Assembly (NCBI GenBank): GCA_025352045.1
Contig: JANXUD010000060.1
Span: 1-38,830, forward strand
Source: Gammaproteobacteria bacterium
GTDB taxonomy: Bacteria > Pseudomonadota > Gammaproteobacteria > Xanthomonadales > Xanthomonadaceae
Direction: 5' to 3'
Length of the DNA stretch: 38,830 nt
Below are positions 27,478 to 34,064 of this stretch, piece by piece. The notes under the pieces were generated by a model. The model did no database searches. It saw nothing but the letters and a program-made list of their open reading frames with translations, and had not been told where the DNA came from. Both the position numbers and the translations under genes were made by a program. The number at the start of each line of letters is the position of its first letter. The first letter of the stretch is position 1.

Positions 27478-30069
<2,592 letters not shown>

Positions 30070-30143: not shown

Positions 30144-31238
30144 TCAACCCTCGGCCGCTGCGCGTCGAACGCTTCCATGTTCCACGTGGAACAGCGCGCC
30201 ACCGCCTGACGCTGCCTGCAGTGGCCCCGGCACCTGCGTTCCGGAGATGATCAGCTGTGCTCCCGAGGCCGTGGCGGTGTCCAGCACCAGGGCCTGGTGT
30301 GCGGCGTCCAGCTCGGAAGCGAGATCGTCGAGACACACCACGGGCCAGTCGCCATGGCGATCGGCTTGGTGCCGGGCCTGGGCGAGCAGGCAACCCAGTG
30401 CGGTGAGCTTTTCCTGGCCGCGGGACAGGTCCTCTCGGCCGGGTAGGCCACTGAAGCCGATCCGCCAATCGGCCCGATGCGGGCCGGTGGAGGTATGGCC
30501 CAGTGCCAGGTCCCGGTCGCGCGCCAGCAGCAGCGCATCAGCGAGGGAAAGCTCCTGCCGGCGCCAGCCGGGCCGAAACTCGAGCATCGACACGCCCAAC
30601 TCGGCCAGCAAGTGCCCCGTTTCCGCGACCACCACCGGTTCCAGGGCGTCGAGATAGTCCTGGCGGAACCGCGTCAGGGATTCGCCGCTTTCCGCCAACT
30701 CATGGTCCCAGGGAGCGAGCGCTGACGCGGCGGGACGTGACTTGAGCAGGGCGTTGCGCTGCTTCAGGGCACGGGCGTAGCGGCGCCAGAGTGGCAGGAA
30801 CCCCGGTTCCACGTGGAACAGTCCCCAGTCGAGGAAGCGCCGGCGGTGCTCGCTGGTGCCCCCGATCAGTTCATGGCTGCCCGGATCGAAGCAGACCACC
30901 GCCACCTGGGCGCAGAGTTCACCGAGGTTGCCGACGTCCTCCCCATCGAGCCGGGCCTCCCAGCGATTGCCGGCGTGCCGCAGCCCGGCGCGATGGGGCG
31001 CCTGGGCTCCGTCGGTCCATTCGGCGTAAATCTCCAGGTGGGCCGCGCCGGTACGCACGAGGCCCTCGCTGACCCGGCCCCGGAACGAGCGCCCGTAGGC
31101 CAGCAAGTGCAGCGCCTCGAGCAGGCTGGACTTGCCAGACCCGTTCGGGCCGATCAACAGGTTCAGGGCGGGGTCGAGCTCCAGTTGCGCCTCGGCCACG
31201 CAACGCACGTCGCGGACCTGAAGCTGCTGCAGGATCAC
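30144..31238 (-). CDS. recF: DNA replication and repair protein RecF
   Basis: An SMC-like ATPase that loads RecA at gaps with RecO and RecR. The 364-residue protein has Walker A at residues 30-38 (GPNGSGKSS), the signature SRGQEKLTALGCLLAQARHQ and Walker B VVCLDDLASELDAAHQ, all intact. It follows dnaN after 72 bases. Two near-identical palindromes within the gene (30178-30193 and 30805-30820) both encode Phe-His-Val-Glu and match the ParB-binding parS consensus. The C-terminal tail (GGGALFHVEHGSVRRAAAEG) that carries the first site lies beyond the conserved fold. Confidence 0.97.
   Translation of the reverse strand: MILQQLQVRDVRCVAEAQLELDPALNLLIGPNGSGKSSLLEALHLLAYGRSFRGRVSEGLVRTGAAHLEIYAEWTDGAQAPHRAGLRHAGNRWEARLDGEDVGNLGELCAQVAVVCFDPGSHELIGGTSEHRRRFLDWGLFHVEPGFLPLWRRYARALKQRNALLKSRPAASALAPWDHELAESGESLTRFRQDYLDALEPVVVAETGHLLAELGVSMLEFRPGWRRQELSLADALLLARDRDLALGHTSTGPHRADWRIGFSGLPGREDLSRGQEKLTALGCLLAQARHQADRHGDWPVVCLDDLASELDAAHQALVLDTATASGAQLIISGTQVPGPLQAASGGGALFHVEHGSVRRAAAEG
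30178..30193. other. parS (ParB-binding) site 1, within recF
   Basis: TGTTCCACGTGGAACA is a perfect 16-base palindrome and matches the chromosomal parS consensus, in the Pseudomonas-type variant with TTCC/GGAA flanks. It lies in the recF C-terminal codons, about 2.4 kb from the DnaA-box cluster. Confidence 0.88.
30805..30820. other. parS (ParB-binding) site 2, within recF
   Basis: GGTTCCACGTGGAACA differs from a perfect palindrome only at the first base. The inner 14 bases are perfect, and the minus strand reads TGTTCCACGTGGAACC. It is 627 bases from site 1 and encodes LFHVEP of recF. Confidence 0.85.
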
Positions 31239-31310: not shown

Positions 31311-32411
31311 TCACAGGCGCAGGGGCATGACCACGTGCCGGCTGCGCTCATGGCTGGCCTCGCGGATCAGCGCGGAGGAGTTGCCGTCGCGCAGGTTGAT
31401 CACCACCTCGTCCTCGCGCAACGCCGACAGCGCGTCGAGCAGGTAGGTGACGTTGAAACCGACCGCCAGCCCATCCACGCGGGTCTGGGCCTCGACTTCT
31501 TCCTGGGCCTCTTCCTGCTCGGGATTGTGCGCCACGATGCGGAGCTGCCCGGGCGAGACTTCGAGCTTGACGCCGCGGTACTTCTCGTTGGACAGGATGG
31601 CGGCGCGCTGCAGGGCGGCGCGGAGCACCTCCCGGTTGACCCGCACTTCCTTGTCGGCGCCGATCGGGATCACCGCGTCGTAGTCGGGGAAGCGGCCATC
31701 GATCAGCTTGGAGGTAAAGGTCACGTCCTCGCGGCGCATGCGCAGGTGGCTGCGCCCGACCTCGAGTTCCACCTCGCCGTCCCCGCCCTCGAGCAGGCGC
31801 TGCAGCTCCAGCACGCCCTTGCGCGGCAGGATGATCTGCTTGCGGGTCTGGGCGCCGGCGGGCAGCTCGGCTTCGCACAGGGCCAGGCGATGGCCGTCGG
31901 TGGCGACGCAGCGCAGCGAGTTCTCGCGCAGGTCCAGCAACAGGCCGTTGAGGTAATAGCGCACGTCCTGCTGGGCCATGGCGAAGGCGGTGCGCTCGAT
32001 CAGCTCCTTGAGCGAGGACTCAGGGACGCGGACGCGCTCGACCAGCTCCAAGTCCTCGATGGCCGGGAAGTCGATCGCCGCCAGGGTCGCCAGGGTGAAG
32101 CGGCTGCGGCCGGCTTGCACGGTGACCTTGTCGCCCGCTTGGCTGACCGTGATCCGGGCGCCGTCGGGCAGGGCCCGGATGATTTCGAACAGCTTGCGGG
32201 CCGGGATGGTGACTTCGCCGTCCTGGCTTTCATCCACCGCAGTACGGGCCACCATCTCGACTTCGAGATCGGTGCCGGTCATCGACAGCTTGCCGTCCGC
32301 GACCTGGACCAGGAGATTGGCAAGGACCGGCAGGGTCTGTCGTCGCTCGACGACGTTCACGACCTGCTGCAGGGGCTTGAGAAATGCTTCGCGGGGAAGG
32401 CTGAAACGCAT
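31311..32411 (-). CDS. dnaN: DNA polymerase III beta subunit (sliding clamp)
   Basis: The ring-shaped processivity clamp. The 366-residue protein has the three-domain clamp fold. Typical sequences are MRFSLPREAFLKPLQQVVNV at the start, LPVLANLLVQV, the central KGVLELQRLLEGGDGEVELE block and the C-terminal SHERSRHVVMPLRL, whose last residues form part of the partner-binding pocket. The length equals the E. coli protein. It lies 263 bases after dnaA, across the putative origin, and 72 bases before recF. Confidence 0.98.
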   Translation of the reverse strand: MRFSLPREAFLKPLQQVVNVVERRQTLPVLANLLVQVADGKLSMTGTDLEVEMVARTAVDESQDGEVTIPARKLFEIIRALPDGARITVSQAGDKVTVQAGRSRFTLATLAAIDFPAIEDLELVERVRVPESSLKELIERTAFAMAQQDVRYYLNGLLLDLRENSLRCVATDGHRLALCEAELPAGAQTRKQIILPRKGVLELQRLLEGGDGEVELEVGRSHLRMRREDVTFTSKLIDGRFPDYDAVIPIGADKEVRVNREVLRAALQRAAILSNEKYRGVKLEVSPGQLRIVAHNPEQEEAQEEVEAQTRVDGLAVGFNVTYLLDALSALREDEVVINLRDGNSSALIREASHERSRHVVMPLRL

Positions 32412-32431: not shown

Positions 32432-32606
32432 GGTGGATAAATAAGAACTGGTGGTGGTAGAGGGCGCCAGTTTAGCTGAAGTTCAGATCCAACCAATTGA
32501 TAATTAAAGGAAATCTCCGCCAGAGCCCTGTGCGTGAAGCCTATCGGCGCCCGGGATAATCTGTGGATAAGTCCAGGGCCCCGCAACTTCTCCAATCTTA
32601 TCCACA
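32432..32606. other. oriC: Putative chromosomal replication origin (oriC)
   Basis: The dnaN-dnaA gap contains perfect DnaA boxes TTATCCACA at 32562-32570 (minus) and 32598-32606 (plus), in inverted orientation 27 bases apart. A one-mismatch box (TTATCCACC, minus) lies at 32432-32440. Between them is an AT-rich stretch at about 32490-32516 (CAATTGATAATTAAAGGAAA) that could be the unwinding element. The flanking replication genes and divergent gene orientation agree with an origin. The exact extent is inferred; the dnaA-rpmH gap is the alternative or second part. Confidence 0.8.
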
Positions 32607-32674: not shown

Positions 32675-34024
32675 TCATTCGGTGAGCTTGCGCACCAGCT
32701 TGTCCCAATCCTCATGCAGCTTGCCGTCGGTGCCGATCAGCTCGCGGATCACCCGGCAGGCATGGAGCACCGTGGTGTGGTCGCGGCCGCCGAACGCATC
32801 GCCGATTTCCGGCAGGCTGTGCTCGGTCAAATCCTTCGCCAGGGCCATCGCCATCTGTCGCGGCCGCGCCAGTGAACGGGTGCGCCGCTTCGACAGCATG
32901 TCCGCCACGCGAAGCTGATAGTAGTCTGCCACGGTCTTCTGGATATTGCTGATCGAGATCACCTGCGCCTGCGCGCGCAGGAGGTCGCGCAGGGTCTCCT
33001 GGGCGAACTCCGGGGTGATGCTGCGGCCCATGAAGTTCGAGCGCGCCGCCAGGGTGTTGAGCGCGCCCTCGAGGTCGCGCACGTTGGAGCGCATTCGCTT
33101 GGCGATCAGGTAGGCCACGTCCTCGGGCAGCTGCATCTTCCGCTCGCTGGCCTTGGCGGTCAGGATGGCCGCGCGGGTTTCGAAGTCGGGCGGCTCGATC
33201 GCCACCGACAGGCCCCAGCCCAGGCGAGATTTAAGCCGGGGCTCGAGGTTTTCCACCTCGCGCGGATAGCGGTCGCAGGTGAGGATGATCTGCTGCTTGC
33301 CGTCGAACAGGGTGTTGAAGGTGTGGAAGAACTCCTCCTGGGTGGTGTTCTTGCCGGCGAAGAACTGGATGTCGTCGATCAGCAGCGCGTCCACCTGCTG
33401 GAACTGGCGCTTGAACTGGTCCATGGATTTCTCCTGCAGCGATTTCATCATCGCGCTGAAGAACTGTTCCGAACGCAGGTAGAGCACGCGCATGCCCGGG
33501 TTGTTGGCGCGCATCAGGTTGCCGGCGGCGTACATGAGGTGGGTCTTGCCCAGGCCCGTGCCGCCGTACAGCAGCAGCGGGTTGTAGTCCCGCCCCGGGT
33601 TCAGGGCGACCTGGAGGGCGGCCGCACGGCCGAGCTGGTTGCTGCGGCCCTCGACGAAATTGTCGAAGGTGTAGTGCTTGTCCAGGTTGCCGGGGAAGTC
33701 CACCGGCGTACGGCCGGCGACCGCCAGGGCAGCGGCGGCCGAGGCGCCGGAGGCGCTGCCGGTGCCGGGCAGCGGGTCGCGCGCGGTCGACGAACCCACC
33801 TCCAGCGCGACCTGGGTGGGCAGGCCCGCGAAATGGCTGATCAGCTCGCGGATGCGCCCGAGGTAGCGCTCGCGGACCGTGTCCACGACGAAGGCGTTCG
33901 GCGCGTAAAGGGTCAGGCCATCGGGCCGGGACGAGGCTTGCAGGGGCTTGAGCCAGGTGTGGACGTCCTCGGCCGAATACTCGGTTTCCAGGCGTTCCAG
34001 GCAGCGGGGCCAGACAGTTTCCAT
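32675..34024 (-). CDS. dnaA: Chromosomal replication initiator DnaA
   Basis: Binds DnaA boxes and unwinds oriC. The 449-residue protein has domain I ([20 protein letters not shown]), an Ala/Ser-rich linker (about 80-105) and the AAA+ domain with Walker [10 protein letters not shown] (154-162) and Walker [10 protein letters not shown]. The C-terminal DNA-binding domain has the signature [12 protein letters not shown] from residue 415. The ATG at 34024 gives the family N-terminus; the longer open frame upstream runs through the promoter region. A perfect DnaA box lies 32 bases upstream of the ATG, which suggests autoregulation. Confidence 0.98.
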
Positions 34025-34055: not shown

Positions 34056-34064
34056 TGTGGATAA
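34056..34064 (-). promoter_or_regulatory. DnaA box in dnaA leader
   Basis: A perfect TTATCCACA on the minus strand, about 10 bases downstream of the predicted dnaA transcription start. DnaA binding here should repress dnaA, as known for dnaA promoters in other bacteria. Confidence 0.8.

Follow-up and report, generated by a model that had tools for sequence, protein, structure and literature searches.

Two parS-type palindromes embedded in recF codons beside the probable replication origin of a gammaproteobacterium, and their conservation across the class

Results

Two palindromes are read in frame within recF

The window, by which we mean the whole 38,830-nucleotide stretch of DNA analyzed, has the gene order dnaA-dnaN-recF-gyrB around the sites described here (Table 1). 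Since the DnaA model is restricted to residues 207-649 of the ORF that holds it, dnaA probably begins inside this ORF, near position 34012. Perfect DnaA boxes (TTATCCACA) are present in the gap between dnaN and dnaA (32562 and 32598) and at 34056; when one mismatch was allowed the window contained 6 boxes against 2.84 expected, a number reached in 4 of 100 shuffles. GC skew goes negative at about 33-35 kb, and it wavers elsewhere in the window too.

Table 1. Genes and sites around recF in the window.
Feature	Coordinates	Strand	Description
gyrB	27478..29919	-	TIGR01059, 980.9 bits (cut-off 882.4)
recF	30144..31238	-	364 aa; host gene of both sites; TIGR00611, 314.3 bits (cut-off 172)
C-terminal parS-type site (site 2)	30178..30193	-	TGTTCCACGTGGAACA; codons Phe350-His-Val-Glu353; 16-mer identical to P. 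aeruginosa parS2
Inner parS-type site (site 1)	30805..30820	-	TGTTCCACGTGGAACC in recF sense; codons Phe141-His-Val-Glu144; 16-mer identical to P. aeruginosa parS1
dnaN	31311..32411	-	366 aa; ORF named from place and length, no profile scan
Two perfect DnaA boxes, dnaN-dnaA gap	32562..32606	.	Probable origin side; GC skew turn nearby
ORF holding dnaA	32675..34630	-	TIGR00362, 548.5 bits (cut-off 343.9)

Two exact copies of the 14-base palindrome GTTCCACGTGGAAC lie in recF, at 30179-30192 and 30806-30819, 627 bases apart. On the plus strand the corresponding 16-mers read TGTTCCACGTGGAACA (site 2) and GGTTCCACGTGGAACA (site 1). Both match the parS palindrome form TGTTCCACGTGGAACM exactly, and the P. 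aeruginosa parS1 and parS2 16-mers used for comparison are those of Table 1 of PMC4368675. The original prediction had placed two such elements in recF, with a common palindrome read each time as Phe-His-Val-Glu; positions and sequences were as described, and translation confirmed the frame at both sites. It had also put them 1.8-2.4 kb from a DnaA-box cluster; about 1.7-2.4 kb separates them from the box pair of the dnaN-dnaA gap.

The palindrome is confined to recF in a genome that encodes ParB

The genome assembly to which the window belongs comprises 3.0 Mb in 141 contigs and is 98.92% complete. Exact matches to GTTYCACGTGRAAC occurred only twice in the whole genome, both times in recF, whereas for a genome this large the base composition would give 0.008 exact copies of the 14-mer. 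A scan of the whole 3.0 Mb revealed no copy with one mismatch, and places with two mismatches were no commoner than those of the reversed control pattern (16 versus 23). The 14-mer is thus not scattered, being confined to recF near the origin, which supports its earlier assignment as a parS form.

A single ParB is encoded in the genome (TIGR00180, 189.5 bits against a cut-off of 58.45; Pfam ParB_N, HTH_ParB and ParB_C). Its gene lies on a contig other than that of the window and adjoins a gene for a ParA-like ATPase, which matched Pfam AAA_31 above the Pfam cut-offs but exceeded no NCBIfam cut-off. We take the gene beside this pair to be rsmG/gidB.

The sites occupy the same two codon positions across much of the class

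We read 151 recF loci from the order and close named relatives, the window included, which yielded 144 distinct sequences after removal of 7 duplicates. Both sites were present in each of the 144, always in one frame and at the same pair of codon positions, and all 151 loci had exactly two sites in recF, spaced by 603-657 bases. The query peptide used in part to find the 80 named loci among these contains FHVE, so that those 80 lean towards having the site; 70 further loci of the order were found by profile from 150 genomes, 30 by best score and 40 picked for spread. In whole-genome scans, 80 of 80 genomes of the order had one to four exact sites, with exactly two in 47. Both sites were present in 13 of 15 further genomes of the order; in G047 one of the two was exact and the other carried a single mismatch. 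G018, where no full recF was found (best match 125 bits), had two exact sites elsewhere in the genome. A third site was located upstream of recF (up to 1.3 kb) in 91/144 sequences and downstream (up to 700 bases) in 12/144, and the four genomes scanned from the genus of the window had two exact sites each and no third one. One record titled Bacillus subtilis SK7B5 (JAHREJ010000062.1, 4001-5089) encodes a RecF 57% identical to that of the window and has both sites, as the Xanthomonadaceae loci do; we take the record to be mislabelled or contaminated.

To cover the families of the class we used a sample of 140 genomes, 118 of which had a recF above the cut-off. Leaving out G000, G001 and G012 (the window and its family) gave 115 recF genes, of which 110 were read first and five (G173, G271, G278, G275, G238) later. 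Two exact in-frame sites were found in 79/115 and at least one in 104/115; site 1 stood alone in 15 genes and site 2 in 10, and 11 genes had no exact site. The genes with only site 1 include L161, where the match starts 29 bases from the end of a contig and recF may be truncated, and G275, where the reading frame is interrupted before site 2. The recF of G275 (L356) is broken into two frames, each part carrying one exact site, reflecting either a decayed gene or an assembly error. At site 1, mismatches numbered none in 94 genes, one to three in 7 and five or more in 14 (n = 115); the sites are nearly all or nothing. A third exact palindrome was seen at another recF codon in L199 (aa 364) and in L264 (aa 294), the latter having lost site 2. 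ParB was present in 135/140 genomes of the sample. A RecF match above the cut-off was lacking in 22/140, among which G163, G282, G237 and G174 were looked at; in the first three neither recF nor a site was found.

From a further sample of 120 genomes of the phylum we read 16 more recF loci inside the class and 46 outside it. Among the former, both sites were present in 10, site 2 alone in 1 and neither in 5, whereas none of the 46 recF genes from the rest of the phylum carried a site.

On a single-gene FastTree tree of RecF, used for counts only, each site changed state 18-19 times; site 1 was inferred in the class ancestor and the deepest node was inferred without site 2. Considering these many changes, that deepest node and the coming and going of third sites near recF, one could suppose that the sites are parS but that each lineage acquired them in recF recently or by convergence, without inheriting an old common arrangement. 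This would leave unexplained that the same two codon positions are used every time, that the class ancestor is inferred to have had site 1 and that most sites are free of any mismatch (94/115 at site 1), and we consider it improbable. As one part of the explanation that we hold very likely overall, the placement of parS in recF would be old in Gammaproteobacteria and retained for the most part in genomes with a chromosomal ParB. In the sequences compared, recF is a favoured location but not a compulsory one, since some recF genes of the class lack an exact site in genomes with ParB and since each site has changed state so often.

Sites are mostly missing from recF where no clear ParB is found

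A ParB match was present in the genomes of all 11 recF genes of the class sample that lack an exact site. In G151, G153, G173, G223 and G278, recF still contains a palindrome that differs by one or two changes. Candidate sites elsewhere in the genome exist for five of the remaining six (G191, G267, G201, G276, G185), and a genome scan of G187 with the looser pattern gave no candidate site. In G345 and G375 (L269, L268), which have two or three ParB matches each, site 1 is lost and site 2 is kept with one mismatch (GTTYCATGTGGAAC).

G295 and G384 gave no ParB match, and those of G318 were all below the cut-off. Enterobacteriaceae and Pasteurellaceae are described as being without chromosomal par genes (PMC3909081), and E. 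coli K-12 was hence taken as lacking them, E. coli having some TIGR00180 match of unstated strength in the control table. The recF genes of all four, G295, G384, G318 and E. coli K-12, carry no site. One site is kept in G249, a 300-contig assembly in which no ParB was found. Overall, recF had a site in 1/5 genomes without clear ParB and in 111/122 genomes with ParB (p = 0.0006, no kinship correction), a comparison that leaves out G173, G271, G278, G275 and G238. As the four genomes may be one related group, their loss of ParB and of the sites may be a single event, and the link between the two losses rests on few, related genomes.

These results also bear on whether the palindrome could be the site of another DNA-binding protein, such as a regulator of a dnaN-recF-gyrB operon, instead of ParB. 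Excess ParB in P. aeruginosa lowers expression of the genes around parS1-4 (PMC5521831), making a regulatory side effect conceivable. The sequence, however, is that of the parS bound by ParB in P. aeruginosa, the genome has a ParB but no other exact copy able to serve as parS, and, G249 aside, the sites are absent from the four recF genes of genomes without clear chromosomal ParB. We therefore regard a different binder as very improbable and retain ParB as the probable protein recognizing these sites.

Selection on the DNA probably accounts for codons and residues at the sites

Among sites of the class reading FHVE or FHVK, 178/183 were exact palindromes, against 12.0 expected when synonymous codons were shuffled within each gene. 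For the recF of the window alone, the same shuffle gave 0.21 expected palindromes against 2 observed. When 223 scored alignment columns were ranked by codon uniformity beyond the usage of the gene itself, the top eight were all site columns, namely the preceding residue, His, Val and Glu at both sites. The suggestion that an alignment of recF might reveal conservation of the DNA beyond that of the protein was thus strongly borne out. Of the sites lacking an exact palindrome, 2/19 at site 1 and 3/23 at site 2 still read FHV[EK], each one base off; loss of the palindrome goes mostly with loss of FHV[EK].

Shifted palindromes point in the same direction. In G223 (L251), both recF sites have become GTTTCATATGAAAC, which changes Val to Met twice (FHMK). 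Its genome contains no other copies of GTTYCAYRTGRAAC, and a still wider pattern found two copies of GTTTTATGTAAAAC elsewhere in it; a changed parS preference in this lineage is possible. Inspection by eye of the ParB recognition region of G223 against that of the window, with 19 other genomes alongside, showed no matching change, so that a switch in ParB specificity could not be read there. In G173 (L353), a genome of 0.9 Mb, site 1 is GTTCTACGTAGAAC, in which a silent change in the Val codon mirrors the change of His to Tyr (FYVE), and site 2 is GTTCCACGTAGAAC, one step towards the form of site 1; the wider pattern matched only these two recF sites, with one match for the reversed control. 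G151 has one-step centres at both recF sites, the only copies in its genome. If selection acts on a palindrome, symmetric DNA changes that also alter the protein are to be expected.

Comparison with RecF proteins outside the class (n = 46, phylum) separates what belongs to the protein from what belongs to the DNA. Their end often has the form F-x-V-x-x-G (F in 21/46, V in 33/46, G in 35/46), whereas His (9/46) and Glu (7/46) are not conserved, and at the positions corresponding to site 1 the motif is not conserved at all. Because F-x-V-x-x-G recurs outside the class while His and Glu do not, this RecF ending is general, and His, Glu/Lys and the choice of codons belong to the DNA site. The prediction that site 2 sits in a non-conserved tail, as if kept for the DNA, has to be corrected in this respect, since the tail is not kept solely for the site. 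The inner site, where the motif is not conserved outside the class, is the clearer case of residues imposed by the DNA. Among the matches listed, two alignments to solved RecF chains lack FHVE at site 1 and do not extend as far as site 2. Covariation between the Phe codon (TTC/TTT) and Glu/Lys gave p = 2.7e-5 at site 1 and 0.07 at site 2 without kinship correction, and after division into G+C classes significance remained just in the low one at site 1; given the weak result at site 2, the G+C classes and kinship, we do not use it as support.

That RecF itself needs Phe-His-Val-Glu, the palindrome being a by-product of G+C-rich codon bias, might be argued from the fixed position of both sites in RecF and from the recurrence of the site 2 ending, His included at times, outside the class, but the synonymous shuffle, the column ranking, the pattern of loss, the variable residues at site 1 outside the class and the protein-altering symmetric changes in G223 and G173 make this very improbable, and we reject a protein-first explanation.

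Discussion

Taken together, the two palindromes are very likely the chromosomal parS, or centromere, of a ParABS system, in an old arrangement where the sites double as RecF codons and selection on the DNA fixes residues of the protein. ParB, encoded elsewhere beside ParA, would load on the two recF palindromes and spread over the origin-side dnaA-dnaN-recF-gyrB region, and ParA would then move the ParB-parS complex shortly after replication. Published work on P. aeruginosa documents such binding and spreading, in that ParB occupies parS1-4 in vivo and extends across more than 20 kb (PMC5098823); for this host we infer, by analogy, that ParB binds and spreads from the recF sites as its working centromere. 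The two sites are very probably used to pull copied chromosomes apart. As judged by comparison of RecF sequences, selection on the DNA would also fix the codons and the His-Val-Glu/Lys residues at two otherwise variable RecF positions.

parS in recF is already known, since parS1 and parS2 of P. aeruginosa lie there (PMC5521831, PMC3909081) and bind ParB in vivo, and the window is a further case. The likeness to P. aeruginosa PAO1 extends to the same gene, the same two 16-mers in the same order, proximity to oriC and a ParABS system in the genome. PAO1 differs in having the extra strong sites parS3 and parS4 and six weaker proposed ones, whereas the recF pair are the only exact copies in this genome; nine of the ten sites proposed for P. 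aeruginosa are predicted to be intragenic (PMC4368675). According to PMC5098823, P. aeruginosa segregates normally without parS1-3, and about 25% of cells are anucleate without all four sites.

In Xanthomonas citri, whose family is that of many of the relatives read, parS has been placed at the 3′ end of dnaN, with the sequence credited to Livny et al. 2007 (PMC3937727). It is the same 14-mer, likewise close to the origin, and fits the third site that we found upstream of recF in Xanthomonas, where the loci also carry the recF pair. The parS of Caulobacter crescentus is a ParB-parS centromere of the same system (PMC5815017), but in the accessible part of that article the native parS lies outside recF and the recF-gyrB region figures only as an insertion hot spot for added parS. 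Conservation across the class at homologous codons, or RecF residues following the DNA, did not appear in the literature searched, and the review PMC7022226 gave no match for recF; Livny et al. 2007, the likeliest place of an earlier notice, lay outside this coverage, leaving priority unsettled.

On a broader view, recF is probably an ancestral home of the gammaproteobacterial centromere, and parS the reason why His-Val-Glu/Lys sits at two RecF positions, with the protein following shifts of the palindrome and drifting upon loss of ParB. If so, the sequence of RecF would preserve the history of both the centromere and ParB. More speculatively, loading of ParB inside the replication operon could couple its expression to segregation, and the two may then be tied. 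A strong effect on expression is not expected at normal ParB levels, because in the accessible part of PMC5521831 only genes near parS3 and parS4 rise in P. aeruginosa without ParB or parS1-4.

The sites provide an unusually clear example of DNA carrying two codes, in which, over much of a class, a segregation signal fixes not only codons but even residues of a repair protein unrelated to it. FHVE in gammaproteobacterial RecF is accordingly a caution against reading such a stretch as a functional protein motif. recF offers a simple way to predict parS and its shifts, and lineages that have lost ParB form a natural series in which to test the conditions that allow a centromere to move.
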